Positions 29,779 through 46,103 of a DNA stretch of 46,104 bases are shown one piece after another. Origin of the DNA: Magnetococcales bacterium WMHbinv6 (GTDB lineage Bacteria; Pseudomonadota; Magnetococcia; Magnetococcales; Magnetaquicoccaceae); contig PDZV01000032.1 in the NCBI GenBank assembly GCA_002753135.1, positions 1 to 46,104 on the forward strand. The letters run 5' to 3'. Position numbers and translations under genes: made by a program. Numbering within the stretch: the stretch's first letter is position 1; every line of letters starts with the position of its first letter. A model generated the notes under the pieces. It was given only the letters and a program-made list of their open reading frames with translations. It did not search any database and was not told the origin of the DNA.

Positions 29779-31491
29779 ATGATGGTATCCCGGCACCGGG
29801 TTGGGGAGCATTTGCTGGCGATGGGAGAGATCAGCGCCGCGCAGTTGCAGACCGCCCTGCAGGCCCAGGCAGAGACCGGAGCCAGGCTGGGTGAAATATT
29901 GGTTCGCCTGCAGATCATGGATGAGGCCCGTTTTTTGGATCGGTTGGCGGCCATGCTGCATGTGCCATTGATTGATCTGCAGGCGGTCCGCCTGGAGAGT
30001 GAGCTGGTGCGCCTGTTGCCGGAGCCGGCAGCTCGACGGTTGCAGGCGGTGGTGCTGTCGCGCACGGCGGAGGGGTTGTTGGTGGGGATGGTCGATCCCA
30101 CCGATATTCTGGCCTGTGATGAGTTGCAGCGCCTGCTCGGCGGTCGCTTGCGTTGGGCGCTGGTGGCTCCCTCTTTGTTGGCCAAGCTGTTTGATCGCCA
30201 CTATCAAGGGGTGGAGCGGGTGCAGGAACAGGTTACCGTACTCGACGAGGCCTTGGGACGTTCACTCTTTCAGCGACAGGGCAAGGGGCAGAACGAACGA
30301 AACGATGATGCCCCGGTGGCGCAGATTTTACAGGCATTGTTTGAAGATGCCGTCCGCCTGAATGCCTCGGACATTCATATTGAGCCCGACCAGGAGGTGT
30401 TGCGTTTGCGGCGGCGTATCGACGGGGTGTTGCAGGAGCAGGTTATTCCGGAACACCGTATCGCCTCTGCCCTGGTTTCCAAGCTCAAATTGATGGCCGG
30501 TCTGGAAATTGCGGAACGGCGTCTGCCTCAGGATGGCCGTTTTGAAATCACGGTGCGCGGCCATACCATCGATGTCCGTCTCTCCACGCTGCCGGTTTCC
30601 CATGGGGAGTCGGTTGTCTTGCGCCTGCTGGATCGCAGCAAGGAGCATGCCTCTCTGGAGACAGTGCTGGAAGCAGAGTTGTTGCACCGCTTGCAGGCGG
30701 TGCTGCAGCGTTTGCACGGGTTGGTGCTGGTGACTGGCCCGACCGGCAGCGGCAAGACCACAACCCTGTATGGTGCGCTGCACCGCCTCAACACCTCGGA
30801 TCGCAAGATTATCACCGTCGAAGATCCGGTCGAATATCGACTGCCACGGATCAGCCAGGTGGCCATTCAACCCCGTATCGGTTTGACCTTCTCTTCCATT
30901 TTGCGCACGGTGTTGCGCCAGGATCCAGATGTGATTCTGGTTGGCGAAATGCGCGACCGGGAGACGGCGGAACTGGCGGTACGGGCCGCCTTGACCGGAC
31001 ATCTGGTTTTTTCCACCCTGCACACCAACAGTGCGGTGGGTGCGGCGGTGCGTTTGCTGGAGATGGGCTTGCAGGGTTATGCAGTGGCTGCTGCCCTGCG
31101 CTGTATTCTGGCGCAACGGTTGGTGCGCCGCAACTGCCCGGTGTGTGCCGAACCGTTGCCCTTGACCGCTGCCGAACAGGCCATTTTGAGCCATCTGTTG
31201 CCCAATCCGCAGGGAACACCGAGGCGCGGGCGTGGTTGTGGTCACTGCCATTTTACCGGCTATGCCGGTCGGATGGCGGTGGTGGAGATGCTGGAGGTGG
31301 AACCGGAGTTGGCCGATGCCTTGCGGCGGCAGGATTTGTCCGCCGTGGTGCGCATTGCCCGGCAGCAGGCGGGCTATGTACCGTTGCACCAGGTGGCCTT
31401 GCGCTTTGCCATGCAGGGCCAGACCACTCTGGAAGAGGCTTTGCGTCTGGTGGAAAGTGAGGAGTATCTGCCTGGTTGGGAAACGGAGTGA
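29779..31491 (+). CDS. mshE: MSHA pilus assembly ATPase MshE (GspE/PilB family)
   Basis: Hexameric cytoplasmic ATPase that powers pilus extension. 570 residues from the ATG at 29779, with AAGGGGG upstream. The N-terminal MshEN domain has two RxG-type c-di-GMP-binding motifs in series: RVGEHLLAMG and RLGEILVRLQ, each followed by the spaced leucines of the family. The ATPase core has Walker A GPTGSGKTTT (about 319-328), an Asp box, Walker B PDVILVGEMRD and a His box (TLHTN). A Cys4 zinc site (CPVC near 452, CGHC near 486) is intact. It ends 2 bp before the DnaJ-Sel1 gene. No mshG platform gene follows. Confidence 0.93.
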   Translation: MMVSRHRVGEHLLAMGEISAAQLQTALQAQAETGARLGEILVRLQIMDEARFLDRLAAMLHVPLIDLQAVRLESELVRLLPEPAARRLQAVVLSRTAEGLLVGMVDPTDILACDELQRLLGGRLRWALVAPSLLAKLFDRHYQGVERVQEQVTVLDEALGRSLFQRQGKGQNERNDDAPVAQILQALFEDAVRLNASDIHIEPDQEVLRLRRRIDGVLQEQVIPEHRIASALVSKLKLMAGLEIAERRLPQDGRFEITVRGHTIDVRLSTLPVSHGESVVLRLLDRSKEHASLETVLEAELLHRLQAVLQRLHGLVLVTGPTGSGKTTTLYGALHRLNTSDRKIITVEDPVEYRLPRISQVAIQPRIGLTFSSILRTVLRQDPDVILVGEMRDRETAELAVRAALTGHLVFSTLHTNSAVGAAVRLLEMGLQGYAVAAALRCILAQRLVRRNCPVCAEPLPLTAAEQAILSHLLPNPQGTPRRGRGCGHCHFTGYAGRMAVVEMLEVEPELADALRRQDLSAVVRIARQQAGYVPLHQVALRFAMQGQTTLEEALRLVESEEYLPGWETE

Positions 31492-31493
31492 TC

Positions 31494-34145
31494 ATGTTTG
31501 AACCACGCCCCGTGCCCTGGTATGTCATTCTGCAATTGCCCCCCGATGCCTCCGCCGAAGAGATCAAAAAAGCCTACCGACGTCTGATGAACCAGTATCA
31601 TCCCGACCGGGTGGTCGGCTTGGGGGATGATCTGGTTGCCTTGGCCGAACATAAGGCCAAACAGTTGAACCTGGCGTATGATGAGGCTTTACGGCGTTTA
31701 AAACAACAAGAAAAAATTGTTCATAAAAAACCGGAAGCACCACCCGAGCCGGAGCGTTACCATGCGACATGGCGGGCAGAGGCCAGACAGGAGTCCCCTC
31801 CGGCAGGCAGCAGGCCGCCCCCGCCGCCACGAGAGCCGGAGGTTCGTTACACGACGCTGTTGGGCGATTGGTTTCACAACGCCGAAGAGATATTCCGTCC
31901 GTTGAGTGCCATCGTGATCTATGGGGTTGTGCTGCTGATCGGGGGGGTTGTACTGAAATTTGTTTATGAGAGCGGCTACATGTCGGTAGGTGGTCTCTTG
32001 GACCGTCTGGCCCGGGAGCAGGTTGGTGTGGCGGGTACCGGGGAGGGAGTGACTGGCGAAGGGCTGGGTCGTGTGGGGGAAAAAGGGCGCAGCAAGGCGC
32101 GGCAGGCCGAGAGTGGAGAGGTATGGGAACGTACGGTGCTGGCTGGCCTGGCAGCCAGTGATCGGGAGCGGATCCGTCGCTTGTATCAGAGTGCGCTGGA
32201 GGGGGATGTCTTGGCGCAGGATCAGTTGGGTTGGCTGTTTCAGTATGGTCGCAACGGGCTGGAGCGTTCTTACGAGCAGGCGGTGCGTTGGTATCGCAAG
32301 GCGGCGGCGCAGGGATATGCCACGGCACAGAGCCATTTGGGTTATCTGTATGGTACGGGCGAGGGGGTGGCGCAGGATGACCAGGAGGCCATTCGCTGGT
32401 TTCGCCAGGCTGCGCAGCAGGGAGATGCGGCAGCTGTTGCCTTTTTGCAGGGGATCGATGCCGGGGAGTTGCGGGCAGTTGCCGATCACAAAGAGGCGGT
32501 GAAGTGGTATCGCAAGGCGGCAGAACAGGGCAATGCCGAGGCGCAGAATGATCTGGGTTTCATGTACAGTGCTGGAGACGGGGTGGAGCGGGATGACCGG
32601 GAAGCGCAGCGTTGGTATCGCCAGGCGGCGGCGCAGGGACATGCGGAGGCACAGTTTGCCCTGGCGGGCATGCTCAAGGAGGGACGAGGTGGTGAGGCGA
32701 ATCTGCCGGAGTCGTTACGTTGGTATCGGCAGGCCGCCGGTCGTGGGCATCTGCGGGCGCAGTTTACCTTGGGGATGATCTATCACAATGGTGATGGGGT
32801 GGTGCGTCAGAGTGGTGACGCGGTGCATTGGTTGCGGGCTGCGGCGGATCGGGGTCATGTGCGGGCGCAATTTCAGCTGGCGCTGCTGCTGGAAGATGAG
32901 CCAGGTGCAGATCGTCATGAGGCGGTGCAGTGGTACCGGCGGGCGGCAGAGCATGGCCATATGGGGGCGCAACACCATTTGGGAGAGATTTATCGTCTGG
33001 GCAAAGGGGTGAGCCGTGACACTCGGGAAGCCACCCTGTGGTATCGCAAGGCGGCGGAGCAGGGCAGTGTCGAGGCGCAAACCGTTTTGGCCGGCATGTA
33101 TGGGCGCGGCGAGGGGGTTGCGCTCGATTTTCGCGAGGCGGTCAAATGGTATCGCAAGGCGGCAGAACAGGGTGAAGCGGAGGCGCAGGCCGGATTGGCC
33201 GCCTTGTACCGGGAGGGCAAAGGGGTGGCGGTGGATGGGCGGGAGGCGGTCCGCTGGTATCGCAAAGCGGCAGAGCAGGGCCATGCGGAGGCCGCCTGTC
33301 AGTTGGGAACGCTTTATGAGCGGGGTTCCGGAGTGGTCCAGGATTATCTGGAGGCGGTCAAATGGTTGCGGCGGGCGGCAGAGCGGGGCCATGCCGAGGC
33401 GCAGACCCGTTTAGGCATGTTGTATGCGGCGGGCAACGGGGTCAGCCGCGATGACGGGGAGGCGTTACGTTGGTATCGCAAGGCGGACGAACAGGGGTAT
33501 GCCCTGGCCAGTTATGCCGTCGGTACGATGTATGAGCAGGGTCGTGGAATGGAGGTTGATCGCAGCGAGGCGTTGCGTTGGTATCGCAAGGCGGCAGAAC
33601 AGGGGTTGGAACGGGCGCAGGTGAGTTTGGCCATGTTGTATGAGCGTGGCGAGGGGGTGACGCGCAACCGGCGTGAAGCGGCGCAGTGGTATCGGCGTGC
33701 GGCAGAGCAGGGAAACGCCCAGGCCCAATCCCGTCTGGCGATGCTGCATCGTTTGGGCGAGGGGGTGGCGCAGAACGATGCCGAGGCCATCCGCTGGTAT
33801 CGTCTGGCCGGGGATCAGGGCGAGGTGGAGGCGCAGTTTCAGTTGGGTCTGATGTATGGCAACGGCTACGGGGTGGTGCGGGATTATCGGGAGGCGGCAA
33901 TCTGGTTTCACAAGGCGGCGGGGCAGGGGTTGGATCGGGCGCAATCGATGCTGGGCTTGATGTATTACGAAGGGGATGGGGTGCCGCGCGATTATGTGCA
34001 GGCACACATGTGGCTGGAGCTGGCAGCACAACAGGGCAACGACGAGGCAACCCGCTACCGGGAGCAGGTAGCCAAACGGATGACCGCCGCCCAGTTGACC
34101 CAGGCCCGCGAACTGGTGCGTGGCTGGAAGGTGGAGAAGATGTAA
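31494..34145 (+). CDS. DnaJ-domain / transmembrane / 17 Sel1-repeat protein
   Basis: 883 residues. An N-terminal J domain (about 6-75) carries the HPD motif (YHPDR, near 35) needed to stimulate DnaK. A Pro-rich linker leads to one membrane helix (about 134-158, IVIYGVVLLIGGVVLKFVY). From about residue 230 to 860 there are 17 consecutive 36-residue Sel1-like repeats of the type EAVRWYRKAAEQG, ending in a capping helix. The J domain would be cytoplasmic and the repeats periplasmic if N-in, which is inferred. GGAG precedes the ATG and the gene begins 2 bp after mshE, so it is part of the pilus operon here. It may act as an assembly scaffold; no known MSHA locus role is claimed. Confidence 0.88.
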   Translation: MFEPRPVPWYVILQLPPDASAEEIKKAYRRLMNQYHPDRVVGLGDDLVALAEHKAKQLNLAYDEALRRLKQQEKIVHKKPEAPPEPERYHATWRAEARQESPPAGSRPPPPPREPEVRYTTLLGDWFHNAEEIFRPLSAIVIYGVVLLIGGVVLKFVYESGYMSVGGLLDRLAREQVGVAGTGEGVTGEGLGRVGEKGRSKARQAESGEVWERTVLAGLAASDRERIRRLYQSALEGDVLAQDQLGWLFQYGRNGLERSYEQAVRWYRKAAAQGYATAQSHLGYLYGTGEGVAQDDQEAIRWFRQAAQQGDAAAVAFLQGIDAGELRAVADHKEAVKWYRKAAEQGNAEAQNDLGFMYSAGDGVERDDREAQRWYRQAAAQGHAEAQFALAGMLKEGRGGEANLPESLRWYRQAAGRGHLRAQFTLGMIYHNGDGVVRQSGDAVHWLRAAADRGHVRAQFQLALLLEDEPGADRHEAVQWYRRAAEHGHMGAQHHLGEIYRLGKGVSRDTREATLWYRKAAEQGSVEAQTVLAGMYGRGEGVALDFREAVKWYRKAAEQGEAEAQAGLAALYREGKGVAVDGREAVRWYRKAAEQGHAEAACQLGTLYERGSGVVQDYLEAVKWLRRAAERGHAEAQTRLGMLYAAGNGVSRDDGEALRWYRKADEQGYALASYAVGTMYEQGRGMEVDRSEALRWYRKAAEQGLERAQVSLAMLYERGEGVTRNRREAAQWYRRAAEQGNAQAQSRLAMLHRLGEGVAQNDAEAIRWYRLAGDQGEVEAQFQLGLMYGNGYGVVRDYREAAIWFHKAAGQGLDRAQSMLGLMYYEGDGVPRDYVQAHMWLELAAQQGNDEATRYREQVAKRMTAAQLTQARELVRGWKVEKM

Positions 34146-34904: not shown

Positions 34905-35399
34905 TTACCCCTCCTCATCGGCCTTGCAGGCTGCCGTAATGACAGCGTCCGACAGATAGTAGCCCGATCTCCGCAGATCCAGCAGCGTTGTGTGCAGGTT
35001 GCCCAGCAAACCTCGACGCCTGGCTTCCACCAATAGACCAGCCGTTCCCTTGACCGGTAACCCATACACATGCCGGGCAATTCGGCGGCCTCGTTTTTCA
35101 TCGATGATCGTCAGGCATGGCATCCGTAGGCGCGCCAGGCTGATCACTGCTGCCTCGCCAAGATCCAGTTCCGCGACCAGCAAGGGATCTGGTTCCGGTG
35201 CGAGGCAGACATGCTCTGCCCACCACAGATCGGTAAACGTGTCTGTACCGGACCGTCCAAGACCAACGGCGGTCACTTCCCGATACACCGCGTCGGGAAT
35301 CCAGAATTCACGGAATAATGCAGGTAAAAGGTCAAGCATCCCAACCAGGGACAAGGCGACCGGCGGACCTGAATTGATGACAGCACGACTCAAGATCAT
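34905..35399 (-). CDS. PIN-like (DUF3368 type) toxin
   Basis: 164 residues. The sequence follows the DUF3368 branch of PIN-domain nucleases: VINSGPPVALSLVGMLDLLP at the N-terminus, WIPDAVYREV, LDLGEAAVISLA (conserved Glu), LTIIDEKRGRRIA (conserved Asp), and GTAGLLVEARRRGLL. The first acidic residue of the PIN site is Asn here, which is common in this branch. It starts inside the stop of the UPF0175 gene (4-bp ATGA overlap), the usual antitoxin-toxin order. Likely an RNase toxin. Confidence 0.85.
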   Translation of the reverse strand: MILSRAVINSGPPVALSLVGMLDLLPALFREFWIPDAVYREVTAVGLGRSGTDTFTDLWWAEHVCLAPEPDPLLVAELDLGEAAVISLARLRMPCLTIIDEKRGRRIARHVYGLPVKGTAGLLVEARRRGLLGNLHTTLLDLRRSGYYLSDAVITAACKADEEG

Positions 35400-35881: not shown

Positions 35882-36271
35882 TCAGGCGGAAGGGGCGTGT
35901 GGCAGAAGCAGACAATGGGCCAGAATTGAATGGCGGAAACTATCCGGTAACTGTGCCCAATCGTGCAGATCGACCAGAAAGGGCAGCTGATTCTCTGACA
36001 AGGCGCTGCGCAGAGTCAGAAAAGCGACGGGTTGTGGCAGATCAGGCTGCTTGGGATTGCGGACGACCAGATCCAAGTCGCTTGCCGGGTGGGCTGTGCC
36101 GTTGACCCGGCTGCCGAAAGCGAGAATTTCACACTCAGGCAAGGTTTGACCGACCAGGCGCAACAATGTGGGGTGATGGTTGATCTGAGAATCGGAACGT
36201 GGCGAATCGGAACCGTGAAGTTGAGCCGAATCGGGTGGTTGCGCGTTGTCGATTATCAAATGAACCGTCAC
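35882..36271 (-). CDS. MNT-domain nucleotidyltransferase (orphan)
   Basis: 129 residues with the minimal nucleotidyltransferase signature FGSRVNGTAHPASDLDLVV near residues 52-70 (GS, then DxD metal site), as in MntA antitoxins that AMPylate HEPN toxins. No HEPN gene lies on either side, so it is an orphan or remnant. The GTG start at 36271 lacks an SD. The first about 28 residues, including SDSPRSDSQ, come from AATCGGAA repeat units, so the true 5' end may have been altered. Confidence 0.7.
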   Translation of the reverse strand: MTVHLIIDNAQPPDSAQLHGSDSPRSDSQINHHPTLLRLVGQTLPECEILAFGSRVNGTAHPASDLDLVVRNPKQPDLPQPVAFLTLRSALSENQLPFLVDLHDWAQLPDSFRHSILAHCLLLPHAPSA

Positions 36272-36579: not shown

Positions 36580-37377
36580 TTAATAGTTCCGGATCAGCAC
36601 CTCCTTTGCCAACGGATGGGCAGCGGTGGTGCAGGAGTACCTGACTGTTGCACCTTCAATATGGAACCCGCCAAAAATATCCCGCACCTCTGGCGTATCG
36701 TTGAGGCTTAACAGGAACATTCCTTTGATTCCTGCCAGCTGATCAGCAAGTTTGGCAAAGTCTCTTTTATCGAAGATTCCTTTCCCGTAGTACTGTTCGC
36801 AATCCCAGTACGGCGGGTCGATATAGAAGAAGGTGCCAGCCCGATCATAGATACGGATCAGCTCTGCATATGGTAGATGCTCGATTGTCACACGCGCCAG
36901 TCGGCGGTGGGTCATCTCCATCTCTCGCCGCAGGGTCATCGGGTTGAAGCTGGTCGGCGAAGTTGCGGAAATGGCAAACGACCGCCTGCCTGCCACGCGT
37001 CCCCCGAAACAAAGCCTGTGTAGGTAATAATATCGTGCAGCTCTCTGAATGTCAGTCATCGATTCGGCAGGCATGTCGAGCAGTCGATCAAACTCCTCCC
37101 GACTTGATAACGACCATTGCAGCGCATTCGCAAAGGCCTCCCAATGATGCTGCACGACGCGGTAGATGTTGACCACATCCCTGTTGATGTCGTTCAAAAT
37201 CTCGCATTTTGACGGAGGCTTGCGGAACAGCACCCAGGCCGCCCCGGCAAACGGTTCAGCGTAGCATTGGTGTTCCGGTATCAGCGGAACAATGGTACGG
37301 GAGAGCAGATATTTACCGCCCATCCAGCTCGACAGTGGGCTTCTGATTTTCTCATTGTTTACTTCCATCATGTTCAC
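36580..37377 (-). CDS. Phage-type DNA adenine methylase (D12 class)
   Basis: 265-residue N6-adenine DNA methyltransferase of the Dam/D12 class. The SAM-binding FxGxx motif appears as AEPFAGAAWVLF, the N-terminal WMGGKYLL matches the family's (W)GGK motif, and the catalytic motif IV is DPPYW. It overlaps the com-like gene by 26 bp. In Mu-like phages Com activates translation of the downstream modification gene, so this arrangement suggests the same control. Likely modifies phage DNA against host restriction. Confidence 0.92.
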   Translation of the reverse strand: MNMMEVNNEKIRSPLSSWMGGKYLLSRTIVPLIPEHQCYAEPFAGAAWVLFRKPPSKCEILNDINRDVVNIYRVVQHHWEAFANALQWSLSSREEFDRLLDMPAESMTDIQRAARYYYLHRLCFGGRVAGRRSFAISATSPTSFNPMTLRREMEMTHRRLARVTIEHLPYAELIRIYDRAGTFFYIDPPYWDCEQYYGKGIFDKRDFAKLADQLAGIKGMFLLSLNDTPEVRDIFGGFHIEGATVRYSCTTAAHPLAKEVLIRNY

Positions 37378-37537
37378 CTTCTGCTGGCGCTCTGTGGCGC
37401 TCTTGGTGGTGCGACTCTTGGTCGTGGTTGAAATAATTCATTGTTTTACACCTCGTACACCTGATCGTTATCTTGCCAGTGCCTTTGGCAAGTACACGAT
37501 TGCATCTTCCACATCTTAATACCGTTTCTATTTCCAT
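37352..37537 (-). CDS. com: Mu Com-like translational regulator (zinc finger)
   Basis: 61 residues from the ATG at 37537, nearly the length of Mu Com. Four cysteines in two CxxC pairs (LRCGRCNRVL and IRCTRCKTMN) match the Com zinc finger, which binds mom mRNA and opens its start site. The gene overlaps the start of the methylase gene by 26 bp. The frame is open 20 codons further upstream, without family similarity. Confidence 0.85.
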   Translation of the reverse strand: MEIETVLRCGRCNRVLAKGTGKITIRCTRCKTMNYFNHDQESHHQERHRAPAEGEHDGSKQ

Positions 37538-37657
37538 TTTTTTGCTCTTATACTGCTCCCACCACAAGCAGTGGTGCGGGACGGCCAACTTGGCCAATTG
37601 GTCTGTGCAAGGTCGGTTCTTGCGGTTCGGGGTGTTGGCGCACCCCGACCCCCGCTT

Positions 37658-38059
37658 TTACGGGGGATTCTTGATCATCTGCTGTACCAGCAGGCGAATT
37701 GTTTCCAGGTCGGTTATATCCAGTTTCAGATAGGGGCGGGCAGGTATATTGATCTGGCCGCCAGGATGGTCTGCCGTCTGCGCAAAGTTTGATTTGCGTT
37801 TGGATACAAAGCGGTTGCCGACCTCTCCTGTTCGTTTATCATGATGGAAATACAATGTACGGCGGTGGGGTGGTATGGTGATGTCGCCGCCGAACTGGTG
37901 AATGGCGGCATATTCCTTCATGGTGCCAACCAGGGCAAAGTCAGGGCCGTGCTGTTGCGTGATTGATGTGCGCAGCCTGCCGGTTCTGACCAGAATTTTA
38001 TCGCCAAACCCCTTTTTTTTCTTGTGGTTGACCTTTTCATCAGGGTCGATGGTTGGCAT
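37658..38059 (-). CDS. Phage virion morphogenesis protein (Mu gpG-like tail completion)
   Basis: 133 residues. The core ILVRTGRLRTSITQQ, VGTMKEYAAIHQFGGDITIPPHRR, and INIPARPYLKLDITDLETI is typical of the gpG/phage tail S family. Full members have about 40-60 more N-terminal residues. Here a short Lys-rich start (MPTIDPDEKVNHKKKKGFG) with a good AAAGGA SD replaces them, so an internal deletion is likely. Lies 33 bp after the interrupted lysozyme gene, same strand. Confidence 0.85.
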   Translation of the reverse strand: MPTIDPDEKVNHKKKKGFGDKILVRTGRLRTSITQQHGPDFALVGTMKEYAAIHQFGGDITIPPHRRTLYFHHDKRTGEVGNRFVSKRKSNFAQTADHPGGQINIPARPYLKLDITDLETIRLLVQQMIKNPP

Positions 38060-38512
38060 GGTAAAATCCTTTGGATGGCGGGTGATGAGGGATCAACCTT
38101 GCCGTATCATCTCGGCCAGGCGGTGTGAACGCATGCCGACCTGTCGCGCCCAGAGGCTGTTCAACATGGCTTCGGCGGCGCGATCGTATTGGGCTTGCGC
38201 GAGCTGCCCCAAGAATTGTTTGAAACCCTTCAGACCGGGAACGCCGAGATTGAAAGCCATGTTGACCAACACCATCTGGCGGTTGGCCGACAGGGTGTCG
38301 AACAACGGTCCCAGGGTTTGGTCTCGTTGAATTTCGGCGATGGTTTGCAGTACGTCATCTTCCAGGATGGTGTCTGCAGCCCGTGGGGAGATGGGGCGGG
38401 CGTCCAGATTGTGACCGACGCCGATGGTGCGGTGGCCGGTGCTGTCGGTGTACATTTGCAACTTGCAGCCCTCGTCAATCTTGAGTGTAAGCGGTGAATT
38501 ACCCGCGTATCT

Positions 38513-40141
38513 TCAGTTCGTTGACAAGCTGGCTTTATCGACGTTCCACGGGAGGAGATTTTCGTAGTCATCCACCGTTGCTGCAGTGGGCAACTGGGTG
38601 AACAGATAGCGCAGGTAGGCAAACGGCTCCAGGCCGTTGGTCTTGGCGGTTTCGATCAGGCTGTACAAGTTGGCGGAGGATTTTACGCCGCGCACGGAAT
38701 CGGAGAAGAGCCAGCCCTTGCGCCCGATCACGAAGGGGCGGATGGCGTTTTCAACGGCGTTGTTATCAATTTCCAGCCGACCGTCGTTCAGATAGCGGAT
38801 CAATCGCGGCCAGTGACCGAGCAGGTAGCCCAAAGCGACCCCCAACGCTGTTTTGGGTGGAACAGTCGGGACGGTTTTATTGGCCCAGGTTTTCAATTCA
38901 TCCAGGATTGGTTTGGCATGCTCTTGCCGCCTTGCGTGCCGTGTCTCAGGTGACGCCTGCTTTTCTCGCAGATCCTTTTCGATGGCATACAATCGTCCGA
39001 TCAAAGCCAATGCCTCACCGGCTTTGCCAGGTTTTTTCCAACCACCTGTGCCAAGAGCCTTGATGGACTCATCAAATTTGCGTCGTGCATGGGCCATGCA
39101 GCCGACATGAACGATGTCTGGATTGGACGCGACGGAGTGATACCCCGTATAACCATCCGTTTGCAGGTAGCCTTTGAAACCCAGCAGCAATTCTTTTGGA
39201 ACGACTCCAGCCCGACTGGCATTGTAATCAAAAAGGATGATCGGTTTATCCGGTGGTCCCCCCTTTTGCACCCACATGTAGGATTTGCTGGTCGCCAATC
39301 TGTCAGGTTCTTTCAATACCTGTACAGTCGTTTCATCCATTTGGACAACGCCGTAATCCAACAGATGATCCCGAAGCAGATTGACAAGCGGTTGTACTGC
39401 TTGACCGGCCTTGATCATCCAGTTGGCCAGGGTACTGCGAGGCAGGTCAATGCCAGCCCGTACCAACATTCCGCTCTGCCGATACAGTGGCAAACCATCG
39501 GCATATTTGGCAACCACGATATGCGCCAACGTGGACGCCGATGCCATCGCCTTCGGAATAATGCGCGGTGGCATGGGGGTGGTCTTGACCCCTTGATGGC
39601 AATGGGGACAACCATATTTGACCTGCACATTCCGGATTACCTGCACCTTAGCCGGAATGATGTCCAACTGCTCGCTGTACTCCCGACCGATTTCGACCAG
39701 GGTTGATCCATCCAAGGCACAGACCTTCTCTGCATCGGTCAGATCGTGAACAATATCGATTCTTGGCAAATCGGATGGCAAAGGCTTGCGACCAGGTTTT
39801 TTCTTTCTTGGTTTGGTGCGTTGCGCAGGGGCCTCTTCTTCTGCTTCGTCCGCGTCAGATGATGTCGCTGCAGTGGTCTCTGCTTCATCAAACAGAGACG
39901 GTTGCCACATACCCATGCAATCCACCTCAGGAGTCTGCCTTCCGCTCTTCTCGCTGGATCGACCAAACCGTTTCGCGGTCAGAATATTCAGTTGACCTCG
40001 CAAATACGCCGCAATGTGTTCGAGCTGGACGTATCTTCTTTCCAGCTCTTTATTATCGTTCGACAAGGAAACGACCATCTCCCGCAGGATGATGGGGTCA
40101 TTTGGCAACTCAGAAGGGAGGAGGTTTGTGCGCGTATCCAT
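38513..40141 (-). CDS. tnpC: IS66 transposase TnpC
   Basis: 542-residue DDE transposase. An N-terminal leucine-rich helix precedes a basic region (RKKKPGRKPLP). A Cys2-type zinc motif (YGCPHC) follows. Catalytic Asp residues lie in VVQMDETTVQVL and LQTDGYTGYH, and the Glu in EIDNNAVENAIRPFVIGRK, followed by the IS66 C-terminal domain. It starts 33 bp after the tnpB stop. Confidence 0.97.
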   Translation of the reverse strand: MDTRTNLLPSELPNDPIILREMVVSLSNDNKELERRYVQLEHIAAYLRGQLNILTAKRFGRSSEKSGRQTPEVDCMGMWQPSLFDEAETTAATSSDADEAEEEAPAQRTKPRKKKPGRKPLPSDLPRIDIVHDLTDAEKVCALDGSTLVEIGREYSEQLDIIPAKVQVIRNVQVKYGCPHCHQGVKTTPMPPRIIPKAMASASTLAHIVVAKYADGLPLYRQSGMLVRAGIDLPRSTLANWMIKAGQAVQPLVNLLRDHLLDYGVVQMDETTVQVLKEPDRLATSKSYMWVQKGGPPDKPIILFDYNASRAGVVPKELLLGFKGYLQTDGYTGYHSVASNPDIVHVGCMAHARRKFDESIKALGTGGWKKPGKAGEALALIGRLYAIEKDLREKQASPETRHARRQEHAKPILDELKTWANKTVPTVPPKTALGVALGYLLGHWPRLIRYLNDGRLEIDNNAVENAIRPFVIGRKGWLFSDSVRGVKSSANLYSLIETAKTNGLEPFAYLRYLFTQLPTAATVDDYENLLPWNVDKASLSTN

Positions 40142-40174
40142 GGTTTGTAATATACCATAACCATGCGGTAATTG

Positions 40175-40534
40175 CTAGGAAATACAAGAATATTGCAGCG
40201 TTTTATGCGGTTTGAAACGGGCAATATCATAGCCGTCCAGCAACCAGTTGAGCTGTTGTCCGCTGATCATTTCCACCTTGCTGTCCGTGCGTCGCAGCCA
40301 GTGAAAACGCTCCTGCTCCAGTCGCTTTTGCCAGAGACAAAAACCATTGCGTTCCCAATAGAGGATTTTGACTTGATTCCGGCGCTGGTTGCTGAACACA
40401 TATAAGGCTGCAGCAAAAGGAGACAATCCCAAACCAGCCTCAATCAGCGCGGCCAGTCCGTTGATCCCTTTGCGAAAGTCAATCGGTTCCAAACAAACGT
40501 ACACTTCCAGTAGATTGTTGGCAGGCCTCATCAT
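40175..40534 (-). CDS. tnpB: IS66 accessory protein TnpB
   Basis: 119 residues from the ATG at 40534, which overlaps the tnpA stop (ATGA). It has the family core VYVCLEPIDFRKGINGLAAL, ALYVFSNQRRNQVKILYWERNGF and a C-terminal DGYDI-like end. Required for efficient IS66 transposition. Confidence 0.96.
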   Translation of the reverse strand: MMRPANNLLEVYVCLEPIDFRKGINGLAALIEAGLGLSPFAAALYVFSNQRRNQVKILYWERNGFCLWQKRLEQERFHWLRRTDSKVEMISGQQLNWLLDGYDIARFKPHKTLQYSCIS

Positions 40535-40872
40535 GGCAAGGATGCCACCAGGCGAAGCAACGTTTCCACCTGTTCCAACCGACCATCCATCCATTCCACG
40601 ACCGCACCATTCGGAAACAAAATTCGGAACGGAGTTGGTGTGGAACCGGGCAACACAACCAGCTTCCTGAACCGAACTCGCCTTGAACTGCCTTCCAGCA
40701 TCCCTCGATCAATCAACTCCCGACGCCACCAATACATGGCGGCCAGACTCAACCCCTGTGCTTCAGCATACGACTTGATCGTACCGGATGTTGTCTGGCA
40801 TCGCTGCCAGTGCTCAAGCCAAAATTGTTGCCTCTCGCTCACCCCTGCTTTGTCGATGACTTTTGCGACCAT
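40531..40872 (-). CDS. tnpA: IS66 accessory protein TnpA
   Basis: 113 residues from the ATG at 40872, with GGGAGG 5 bp upstream. N-terminal helix-turn-helix-like part (FWLEHWQRCQTTSGTIKSYA, AQGLSLAAMYWWRREL) and a C-terminal strand-rich part (RILFPNGAVVEWMDG) typical of IS66 TnpA. Overlaps tnpB by 4 bp. Confidence 0.94.
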   Translation of the reverse strand: MVAKVIDKAGVSERQQFWLEHWQRCQTTSGTIKSYAEAQGLSLAAMYWWRRELIDRGMLEGSSRRVRFRKLVVLPGSTPTPFRILFPNGAVVEWMDGRLEQVETLLRLVASLP

Positions 40873-41093
40873 TCCAACCTCCCAAAAAAGTGTTTTCCGG
40901 GATGGTCTCATCATTATGAATATATGGGTACCCTGGGGAGAAATGGACGCTTACTCTTGAGTTGGGCTTTGAGGGTACCGAGTACGAATTTGTAGCCGGG
41001 CATGGGTGACTCCTGTCGACAGGGGTTGATCCTGCCGACAGGATAGAGGGGGTGGTTTGCGGATGTGTAGCTAACGGATGTTAGCAGGTGGGG

Positions 41094-42338
41094 TCAAGGC
41101 AATAAAAACTGGCTTGTGGTGGGAAAATCAGCAATATATTCCGATAAAGTACAATAAAGTGATTTTAACTGTACACTGGCTTGGAATGTCAGGTCCGAAA
41201 ATACCCATGCTGTAAGAGTCATTCCCAACCATGTGCTGAATATAAGATATTTTAATATGCGCAAGTTGCTGTTATACCTTTTTTCAAGGCCGGAAAAAAT
41301 GTCTTCTACCTTCTCAAAAAGGGTGGGGTGTTGATTTTTGTACCTGTCACGTCTCTGCCGCATTTCTTCCCATACAGAGTGCAGGGTATGACGCTGATTG
41401 TATACCAGAACCAGCATCATGCAGCCAAAAATAAGCGATCCAACCATTATTGAACAGTTTTTCCATGTAAACCCGTTTTTATCTTCCAGTTGTCCACCCG
41501 CCAGTAACAGAGCAAGAGGAACAGCGAGAAACTTATTCTGAATATCTGACAAGACTCCATTGAGTTTAACCATATATTCCATTTTTCTTTCTTCTAACTC
41601 TTCTCGCGCTTTCTCAAACGAAAAACCACTAATAAATACTTGGTAATTATTGTTAACTTTATCAAGTATTTCATCAGATAGATCCGACATGCGGACAAAG
41701 CGTTCTTCAGGCAATATGTTTTGTAAAGTTTCGCTCAATACCGTCTTCAAGATGGTAAGAATTTGTTTACGATGACGCGAAGTGTCATGATCATGATTAA
41801 GTGAAGTGTCGAGTAATTTGCGTAAGGCTTGAGCAGCTGGAAGAGGTCGTAAATTTGTTACCTCGTATTTTATCACAATTTCTGTCTTAGCTGGTTGAAA
41901 AAAGATGAATTTCTGATTCTTCCCTTGAGGTTGGGTATGGTCTGCTACTTCTCTCAGAACAGAAACCAAGGATAAAATATCAAGATAGTGTTGCGCTGTC
42001 TCACAACTGCTGCCAGCATGATCTGAATACAGATAACAATCACTTTATATATAGAAATCAGCAGGTTTTTCAGTTTGATGGGGGGAGTAACTAAAAAATT
42101 CTTCCCAATCTTTTGCGATGAAGCCATGAAGGATAGATCTCGGCACCTCCAGTAATATTTTATCGTTTTCACAAGGAGTCTTAAGAACATCAAGTTCTTG
42201 GAGTTGTGTTAGGAGGTTGTAATATTCTGTATACTTTTTGTTGATGCGGCCAGAAATAGTTTCTCCTTCCCACTGTATGTCTTCAAGCAGTCGGATCATA
42301 TCGGCGCAAACAGGTACCTTGCGCGTATTATCGTTCAA
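41094..42338 (-). pseudogene. Membrane protein partner of NA37, interrupted by one TAA codon
   Basis: A single frame of 415 codons from the TTG at 42338 (overlapping the NA37 stop, with GGGGA upstream) to the TGA at 41094. One TAA at codon 98 (42045-42047) interrupts it. The 97-residue first part is helical (LLEDIQWEGETISGRINKKY). After the stop the same frame is open without a break, and 25 codons later has a possible TTG at 41969. The second part has a helical region (about residues 200-270) and three hydrophobic segments (FLAVPLALLLAGG, CSIMVGSLIFGCMMLVLVY, YLIFSTWLGMTLTAWVF). It may be a nonsense mutant, two cotranslated genes, or a readthrough product. No family recognised. Confidence 0.6.
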
Positions 42339-43342
42339 CTTTCATTCCCCAATTGCTGGATCCATTTTTCCGGGAGATTGGTAAAGACAAGCACTGTTTC
42401 ATTTCCTTCTTCCCTTAAAAATACATCTTTGTTCAGAAGAGTTCTATCAAAAGACAGAGCCACCCCATTTTTTTCTAATTTGAAAACTTTAAACCGTCGA
42501 AGCGCTTCCCTGTCGGGATCGAAACTGCTGTTCAGTCCAATCTCGTCGGAATTGGCAAAAACAAAAAATGCCGTCGGTTTTTCTTCACTTACCAGTGACG
42601 ATAGAGTTTCCAGGTAAACTGGTTGCTTTTCTCTGCGCTTGTCCTCGCAATAAGAGTATATCTTTCTAATGACTTCGCCTGTCTTTTCCTTGCTCATCTC
42701 TTCCTGAGCGCAGAAATCTATAATTGCTTGTCGTAACTTATTGGTTTGGTCACGGGAGTCGCTGTACCCATCACAACCAATGAATTCAAGAAAATAATCC
42801 GAAATATCACTGGTTCCCCTCCCTTTAACGAAAGAGAGATACTGTTTGTCGGTGTGTTTCGTCCAGAATGTAATATTTAATCTTGCAGCAAAGTGCAAAT
42901 GTTTGGTGTCCAGATGGTGGATGTTATTGATTGTTAGGTCACTCTCGTTTACCGCTGTACCTGTCACATCCTTCAGCGCGACAACCATGAGAAACTGGTT
43001 GGGTTCTTCCTGGTACAGAACAAACAAAACATAGCCGCCGGTTGCCAGATGCTCTTTGTTGATGATGCCTTCAAAATGCTCCATCGCATCAGTTGTAAAC
43101 TTCACAAAATCGTGTTCGTTTTTCAGGAACTTTTCGACCATCCCTTGGAAAGGGTAACTGGCTTTTTTCTTATTGAATGTCCCACGGGATTTGCCTGTTT
43201 GCTCGTAGGCTTTCCGCAAGTCGTTCATCAGAAGCTCCAGCGCATCGGAACTGACAGCCAACTCTTTGTCTCGTAACTGCAACTTGGCTGGTTGGTATCT
43301 TTCTTTTTTGATGCGGTGGATGATGGCGTGTTCCAGTTTCAA
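42335..43342 (-). CDS. NA37/YejK family nucleoid-associated protein
   Basis: 335 residues from a TTG at 43342, with AGGAGG 8 bp upstream; this equals the length of E. coli YejK (NdpA). Family segments seen: LKLEHAIIHRIKKE at the N-terminus, GGYVLFVLYQEEPNQFLMVVAL, INNIHHLDTKHLHFAARLNI, YLSFVKGRGTSDISDYFLEFIGC, and VIRKIYSYCED. The frame is open 46 codons upstream, with no family similarity there. The base composition is visibly AT-richer than the pilus region, suggesting transfer. It overlaps the start of the membrane-protein gene by 4 bp (TTGA). DNA binding is a family-level inference. Confidence 0.88.
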   Translation of the reverse strand: MKLEHAIIHRIKKERYQPAKLQLRDKELAVSSDALELLMNDLRKAYEQTGKSRGTFNKKKASYPFQGMVEKFLKNEHDFVKFTTDAMEHFEGIINKEHLATGGYVLFVLYQEEPNQFLMVVALKDVTGTAVNESDLTINNIHHLDTKHLHFAARLNITFWTKHTDKQYLSFVKGRGTSDISDYFLEFIGCDGYSDSRDQTNKLRQAIIDFCAQEEMSKEKTGEVIRKIYSYCEDKRREKQPVYLETLSSLVSEEKPTAFFVFANSDEIGLNSSFDPDREALRRFKVFKLEKNGVALSFDRTLLNKDVFLREEGNETVLVFTNLPEKWIQQLGNES

Positions 43343-43693: not shown

Positions 43694-44074
43694 TCAATGC
43701 GGGAAGAAGGATTTGAGAATCAGGGCGATGACGCCGCCGACACAAACGGCCATACCCCACTTGAGAGGGGCGATTTCGGCGGTCATGCGCAGCTCAAGCT
43801 CTTTGATATCGCGCTTCAGTTCGGATTTTGCTTCTTTGGCATCCTGTTTCAGTTCCAGGATGTGCATATCTATTTTGTGAAGGTCGGCCACGTCGGCCTT
43901 GGTGGAAAGCTGCCCTTCCAACTCCTTCAGATCCCGCTTTGCCGCCATCTCTTCAAACTGATTGGCGTGGGTCTCCTTGATGGCTTCAGAAATGGCCTCG
44001 GCCTGATTCTCCGGGATGCCTGCCTCCTTGAGACGGCGAACAAACTTGAATGTGTCAAAGGTAACAGCAATCAT
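43694..44074 (-). CDS. DUF1640-type coiled-coil membrane-anchored protein
   Basis: 126 residues. An N-terminal helix (IAVTFDTFKFVRRLKEAGIP, then ENQAEAISEAI) is followed by a long coiled coil (about 45-100) and one C-terminal membrane helix (GMAVCVGGVIALILKSFFPH). This is the CCDC90/DUF1640 layout. GGAGAG lies 8 bp before the ATG. A frameshifted paralog with matching upstream and downstream flanks is at 16706-16995. Function unknown. Confidence 0.82.
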   Translation of the reverse strand: MIAVTFDTFKFVRRLKEAGIPENQAEAISEAIKETHANQFEEMAAKRDLKELEGQLSTKADVADLHKIDMHILELKQDAKEAKSELKRDIKELELRMTAEIAPLKWGMAVCVGGVIALILKSFFPH

Positions 44075-44965: not shown

Positions 44966-46103
44966 CTTATTCCATTTCTAAATCATTAATGCTATAATGT
45001 GCGCATCATTCATCTGCTGCTATAGGTGCGCACATGGCGAGAACCGCAAGTGGAATCAAGGTATTGGAGCAGGCCAAAACGTGTTTGGCCAAGGCCAAGA
45101 CGGTGGGAGAATTGCGACAGGCCCAGGCTGTTGTCTTGCCGCTTGAATTTGGCTTGTCGATACCGCAAACGGCACAAGCTTTGGGGGTTTCAACGAGATG
45201 GGCGTGCCAATTACGGACACGATTCATCAAGGAAGGTGGGGTACCGTCGCCGGTCGGTGAAGGACGTGGCGGCAGACGACGAGAAAACATGACTCGCGAG
45301 GCAGAAGCGGAATTTCTGTTGCCATTTTTTGAAAAAGCAAAGGACGGCGGTATCTTGGTCGTTGGGGAAATCAAATTGGCCTTGGATGAACGTCTCGGCC
45401 GCAAGGTTGCCCTGGCTTCTGCGTATAACCTGCTGCACCGTCATGGGTGGCGCAAACTCGCCCCTGACAAACGTCACCCACAGTCCGACCCCGTGGCGCA
45501 AGAGGAGTGGAAAAAAACTACCAAGAAACCATTGCCCGCATTGATCAGGAGTGGTCGGGAGAAGGAACCATCCGACTGATGTTCATGGATGAAGCACGTT
45601 TTGGGCGCATTTCCGACACCCGATCTTGCTGGTGTCCAAAACCGTTCCGGCCTGTTTGCCAAGCTATGCTGACACATCAGTACACCTATGCCTATGGCGC
45701 AGTATCGATCAAGGACGGCGAGTTTGACAGCCTCATGCTTCCATACGTCAATGGAGCGTGTACGCAACTCTTCCTTGACGAGGTGGCTCGACGACACCCG
45801 ATGGATCGGATTGTCATGGTCATGGATGGTGCAGGATGGCATAAGAATCAATCGCTTGTTCCTCCAGATAACATGCGCTTGTTGTTTCTCCCGCCCTATG
45901 CTCCTGAGCTCAACCCGGTTGAGCATGTGTGGGATGAACTGCGTGAGAAATGGTTCCATAACAGGGTTTTTGAGAGTCTCGAAGCACTTGAGAGACACCT
46001 GGAATCAGCACTCCTTGCCCTGGAAAATGATCGTGACCGTATCAGATCAATCACGGCATGGCCGTGGATAGTTAATGCACTTTTGATTTAGAAATGGAAT
46101 AAG
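44966..46103 (+). mobile_element. IS630-family (Tc1/mariner-like) element
   Basis: Terminal inverted repeats CTTATTCCATTTCTAAATCA are identical at both ends (from 44966, and as complement ending 46103). A TA precedes the left end (44964-44965), as expected for TA-targeting IS630 elements. The last base of the window (46104) is the T of the presumed second TA. About 1138 bp, with one transposase read through a frameshift. Confidence 0.9.
45034..46091 (+). CDS. IS630 transposase, two frames joined by a -1 shift
   Basis: Frame 1 (45034-45579) has the N-terminal HTH part (LSIPQTAQALGVSTRWACQL). Frame 2 (from about 45507 to 46091) has the DDE catalytic part: LMFMDEARFGR, VMVMDGAGWHKN and LPPYAPELNPVEHVWDEL. 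A run of seven A residues at 45511-45517 lets the ribosome slip back one base, joining WKK to NYQETIARIDQEW. The joined protein would be about 350 residues, normal for IS630. AGGTG lies 5 bp before the ATG. Programmed frameshifting is known in IS630 elements; decay by mutation is the alternative. Confidence 0.85.

Follow-up and report, generated by a model that had tools for sequence, protein, structure and literature searches.

A divergent NA37 and membrane protein gene pair with an interrupted partner in a Magnetococcales genome, a candidate relative of the anti-phage system DS-1

Why a gene of the NA37/YejK family should be joined to a gene for a membrane protein, and whether the two form a phage defence unit, is the question raised by one locus of the window, as we call the whole stretch of 46,104 nucleotides analysed here. 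Its elements are the following:

42335..43342, minus strand: NA37/YejK-family gene, the first gene of the pair (335 aa, PF04245 match)
41094..42338, minus strand: partner gene, coding for a membrane protein distantly related to DS1_2, with an in-frame stop (NF053869 match, intact homologues)
42335..42338, minus strand: TTGA overlap between the TGA stop of the NA37 gene and the TTG start of the partner gene (from the sequence)
42045..42047, minus strand: TAA that interrupts the partner gene in frame at its codon 98 (from the list of open reading frames and the translation)

The assignment of the first gene to the YejK/NA37 family and its translational coupling to the second, both proposed in a sequence-only reading of this DNA, were borne out. 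The NA37 protein matches Pfam PF04245 above the gathering score (E 4.4e-69; 233.8 bits for a cut-off of 24.6), and its gene has a TTG start preceded by an AGGAGG-like site. Its structural model (pLDDT 85.5) adopts the YejK fold, the match to E. coli YejK (PDB 9be2) having a Foldseek E value of 2.7e-22 and a Z score of 25 over 315 residues. With NF001557, the equivalog model of the housekeeping YejK, it scores 251.8 bits, below the curated cut-off of 341. The genome to which the window belongs has one NA37 gene in total, namely the paired copy. As to the junction, TTGA includes the TGA with which the NA37 gene ends, and the partner starts with the TTG; an in-frame ATG is found as well 35 bp downstream.

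The same reading had given the partner three membrane segments, which agrees with our analyses: hydropathy detects two in the window copy, with a third slightly below the threshold, and two or three in most homologues, with a fourth in some. A model was built on the intact homologue of the closest relative, L006, together with twelve relatives (pLDDT 84.3, pTM 0.57). In that model, an alpha/beta N-terminal domain extends up to approximately residue 200 and is followed by a helix at 215-264, and the membrane segments fall within long helices at 286-330 and 338-379. The polar residues P268, N308 and Q309 (L006 numbering) are conserved at the membrane end of the long helix. The partner is thus predicted to begin with a soluble domain, to continue with a long helix and to end with three membrane helices. 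No convincing match to it was found among solved structures, by Foldseek against the PDB (best E 0.055) or by sequence against the PDB, and neither Pfam, NCBIfam nor PADLOC yielded a toxin or channel family, '2TM' (E 0.016-0.03) being its sole effector match in PADLOC. We rejected a CorA/Mrs2-like channel for residues 235-381: VIA-align gave Z scores of 8-11, but the aligned stretch consists of the long helices, for which, as the tool warns, a Z below about 13 may reflect merely a common arrangement. Searches of Pfam, NCBIfam and PADLOC revealed a recognised enzymatic domain in neither the NA37 protein nor the partner.

The pair had been put forward as an undescribed two-gene system, and this is where the sequence-only reading failed. 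Release 20 of NCBIfam (June 2026) contains two models named anti-phage, DS1_1 and DS1_2, which match the two window genes and so rule out that reading. The NA37 protein matches NF053868 (DS1_1_antiphage; E 3e-24, 85.7 bits) without reaching its cut-off of 330, and the partner matches NF053869 (DS1_2_antiphage; E 3.5e-27, 95.5 bits) over residues 73-335, without reaching its cut-off of 315. Neither gene convincingly matches any PADLOC family, and we therefore discarded the idea of a system already known to that database. According to the DefensePredictor paper (Science 2026; PMC13092281), a YejK nucleoid-associated domain is among the newly validated defence domains, and 'DS' systems are cloned units that lower plaque size or plating efficiency in E. 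coli MG1655 with a panel of 24 phages. From the names and the domain, we infer that the DS1 models of NCBIfam probably represent the system DS-1 of that paper, the text of which does not list the genes of this system.

Among the family members compared with these models, NF053869 was matched by all 11 partners and NF053868 by 10 of the 11 NA37 proteins. Partners above the NF053869 cut-off occurred in 2 of 246 genomes of one enterobacterial family, both with NA37 upstream. True DS1_2 members (L062 and L063) are placed on a long branch, and a direct DNA match to L062, a DS-1-type pair of Enterobacteriaceae, was sought in E. coli genomes and not found. The range of the anti-phage NA37 pair thus extends far beyond what the two curated models cover. 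Because most pairs fall below the curated cut-offs, current annotation misses them and labels the first gene as a plain nucleoid protein.

The queries for collecting homologues were the sequence of the partner, an alignment of it or the DS1_2 model, never NA37, and the collections covered were relatives, PLSDB plasmids, GTDB contigs, 398 genomes of the phylum, the 246 enterobacterial genomes and IMG/VR contigs; closer subsets of the alignments were used for the profile scans of these viral contigs. The sequence-only reading had held that the pairing would be accidental if homologues of the two genes almost never co-occurred in other genomes. An NA37 gene was found directly upstream and on the same strand in 34 of 34 non-truncated partners, a count that includes the window copy, interrupted but of full length. 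Chance pairing is thus excluded, since the pair recurs. The two genes overlap in 19 of 32 pairs and lie within 35 bp of each other in the remaining 13. Five partners have no NA37 (L013, L015, L016, L061 and L065), and each of them lacks the N-terminal part or carries a stop. In these five, the loss seems to strike the N-terminal half of the partner along with NA37.

The pairs are hosted by plasmids, prophages and chromosomes of Magnetococcales-type bacteria and of alpha- and gammaproteobacteria, and Sinorhizobium phage phi2LM21 carries one. L006, the nearest relative, belongs to a Magnetococcales metagenome-assembled genome of the same family as the genome of the window. The partner gene is absent from six genomes of the same genus, indicating that it is accessory. 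In the phylum sample (398 genomes), 88 genomes harbour NA37 and 9 the partner, with pairing in 8 of the 9, and the difference between these numbers sets the paired NA37 proteins apart as a special subset.

The gene trees bear on the descent of this subset. For 31 pairs, the distance matrices of the two trees correlate with a Mantel r of 0.93, a value attained in none of 2000 permutations; shared descent along the host tree may add to it, but the members come from plasmids, from prophages and from different classes. A single clade, free of paired members, unites the solitary YejK proteins of chromosomes with the solitary NA37 proteins of phages, and in genomes that have both YejK and the pair, the paired NA37 is the second, more divergent copy. 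The pair is an obligate, co-inherited and mobile unit, distinct from the housekeeping YejK. On the IMG/VR contigs, we also noted 74 phage-contig NA37 loci without a membrane partner (within L081-L159), and those included in the tree group with the housekeeping YejK.

The earlier proposal to test whether such pairs recur in defence islands was taken up with a PADLOC scan of the 113 ORFs that flank 20 pairs, at most three per side, with 113 ORFs beside solitary YejK genes as the control. At a threshold of E 1e-10, the neighbours of the pairs matched 214 PADLOC families and those of solitary YejK 11; PADLOC families overlap, so that these are not independent counts, but the contrast in the best scores is plain (9e-292 for the pairs and 2.6e-24 for solitary YejK). 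The pair is often found near known defence genes, with the following examples:

L007, pair on a Methylobacter plasmid: full-length GajA and GajB (Gabija)
L017, pair on an Acinetobacter plasmid: QatA (Qat)
L010, pair on a Pseudomonas plasmid: PDC-S06
L059, chromosomal pair: PDC-S01

In the window itself, the pair has a GC content of 43% (NA37) and 39% (partner), compared with 54.8% for the window. Its surroundings comprise:

34905-35399, minus strand: DUF3368 gene
35882-36271, minus strand: polymerase-beta-type nucleotidyltransferase gene
36580-38461: phage genes
within 36580-37597, minus strand: D12-class adenine methyltransferase gene (PF02086, 9.8e-29)
38513-40914: IS66 element, downstream of the pair
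43694-44074, minus strand: gene for a short protein with a CCDC90-like coiled coil (PF07798, 3.6e-10)
45034-46091: IS630-type transposase gene, to the right of the pair

The picture of an AT-rich, apparently laterally acquired pair between a prophage remnant, an insertion sequence and toxin-antitoxin modules is in keeping with these data and with the occurrence of the pair on plasmids and prophages; the DUF3368 gene and the nucleotidyltransferase gene are probably the toxin-antitoxin modules in question. Genes for virion morphogenesis and for a lysozyme also belong to the phage remnant, and its methyltransferase gene overlaps a small zinc-ribbon-like ORF, whose product we take to resemble the Com protein of Mu-like phages. 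The CCDC90-like protein, encoded just upstream of the pair, has a hydrophobic C-terminal end. Farther away, 31476-34145 (plus strand) codes for a single protein in which a DnaJ domain precedes at least 13 Sel1 repeats, and adjoins a type II/IV secretion ATPase gene.

The partner frame of the window comprises 414 codons, and its single in-frame TAA splits it into an ORF of 97 aa and an open stretch of 316 codons. As sequenced, the window thus yields no full-length partner, and the local copy is probably inactive or yields a truncated protein. In 30 of 30 other aligned members, the alignment column of this TAA is occupied by a sense codon. We discarded programmed read-through as a general feature, as the other in-frame stops belong to the decayed, NA37-less partner L065 or lie outside the profile-matched ORF (L057).

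The window pair could be a dead remnant, in which a nonsense mutation inactivated the partner and NA37 persists by chance. The interrupting TAA and the IS66 element directly downstream of the pair speak for it, as do the 97 codons at the start of the partner (42048-42338, minus strand), where changes specific to the window are in excess, with p values between 0.01 and 0.5 depending on the outgroup. The frame behind the stop argues in the other direction. It has 31% identity to L055, the same value for the window copy and its nearest relative, and shows no acceleration in the comparison with L055 (23 versus 22 lineage-specific changes); its divergence remains mainly at third positions (0.40, 0.25, 0.65). 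The NA37 gene of the window is likewise not accelerated. The conserved frame without acceleration implies that the stop is recent, that it is an assembly error or that a shortened protein is still made. We consider the chances of the dead-remnant reading to be even; it concerns the local copy alone and is compatible with the explanation of the family as a defence pair. The pattern in the first 97 codons resembles a relaxation of selection on the N-terminal domain with the membrane half kept, the significance being outgroup-dependent.

For the family as a whole, the mechanism that we deem most likely, at a level of confidence near the midpoint, is that of a membrane-anchored, DNA-binding, non-nuclease complex that would engage phage DNA in the manner of Kiwa. 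Judging from hydropathy, the partner would be inserted in the inner membrane, its N-terminal domain facing the cytoplasm. There it would hold NA37 dimers, which may bind DNA as other members of their family, in a stoichiometric complex. On infection, the complex might engage incoming or replicating phage DNA and block its use without cutting it, like KwaA-KwaB. Kiwa is the closest model; its mechanism needs no enzymatic domain, and none was found in the pair. If this reading is true, DNA traps tethered to the membrane would exist within a family that has long been regarded as housekeeping.

The main rival of the Kiwa-like reading is abortive infection by membrane disruption, the role suggested in the sequence-only reading, which we hold to be possible though clearly less probable. 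NA37 would sense phage DNA or an altered nucleoid structure and activate the partner, which would make the membrane permeable or depolarise it; the cell would then die or cease its activity before phages are released. A long helix that has conserved polar residues and leads into C-terminal membrane helices would suit such an effector, and the five truncated or interrupted partners without NA37 are to be expected if the partner alone is harmful. The database searches argue against it, as the marginal '2TM' match is all that they returned by way of an effector, and a stoichiometric complex would explain just as well why the NA37 gene precedes the partner and is never lost. An unlikely alternative is a cassette for the maintenance or regulation of mobile elements, in which NA37 would organise or silence the DNA of the element or, by way of the partner, anchor it to the membrane for segregation: carriage on plasmids and prophages is consistent with it, as is the control of transfer of the integrative and conjugative element PAPI-1 by its YejK-family protein NdpA2 (PMC8565334), but the enrichment of defence genes over the YejK control, the anti-phage names of both NCBIfam families, the experimental validation of a YejK domain in defence (PMC13092281) and the existence of chromosomal pairs all weigh against it.

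Compared with known systems, the window NA37 shares family and fold with the housekeeping YejK/NdpA (NF001557; PDB 9be2; Z 25). The latter, however, is solitary, usually present once per genome and confined to its own clade, whereas the window NA37 is accompanied by a membrane protein and lies outside the YejK clade. With DS-1, the window pair has in common the families, the gene order, the coupling and the general length, with homology in both genes, and it conforms to a broad definition of DS-1-like pairs, as NA37 is followed at once by a DS1_2 homologue on the same strand. It differs from DS-1 in the strict sense in that it is far below the equivalog cut-offs, belongs to another clade and has an interrupted partner. 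We regard it with medium confidence as a divergent member of the anti-phage pairs of NA37 and a membrane partner that DS-1 represents.

In Kiwa, the membrane protein KwaA recruits KwaB dimers to the injection site, where KwaB binds DNA without cutting it (PMC12904381). The likeness is one of layout, a membrane protein with a putatively DNA-binding, non-cutting protein, this activity of the window pair being suggested by its family; what differs from Kiwa is the build of the window partner, with its N-terminal domain and three predicted membrane helices. The window NA37 does not match the KwaB Pfam family PF16162, and we rejected sequence homology between NA37 and KwaB, as hhalign gave a probability of 0.1% over 24 columns for the NA37 profile against nine KwaB sequences. 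In structural comparisons, the NA37 model matches KwaB weakly, in a range where chance matches are common (Foldseek E 0.76, TM 0.24; Z 4.3 with an rmsd of 4.7 over 128 residues), and KwaB entries recur several times among its weak matches. It is conceivable, if rather improbable, that NA37 comprises, besides its housekeeping branch, a large and old branch devoted to defence, in which a membrane platform is a constant companion, with NA37 and KwaB perhaps remotely related; DS-1-like pairs and Kiwa would then be two lineages, or convergent inventions, of a membrane-lattice DNA trap at the injection site.
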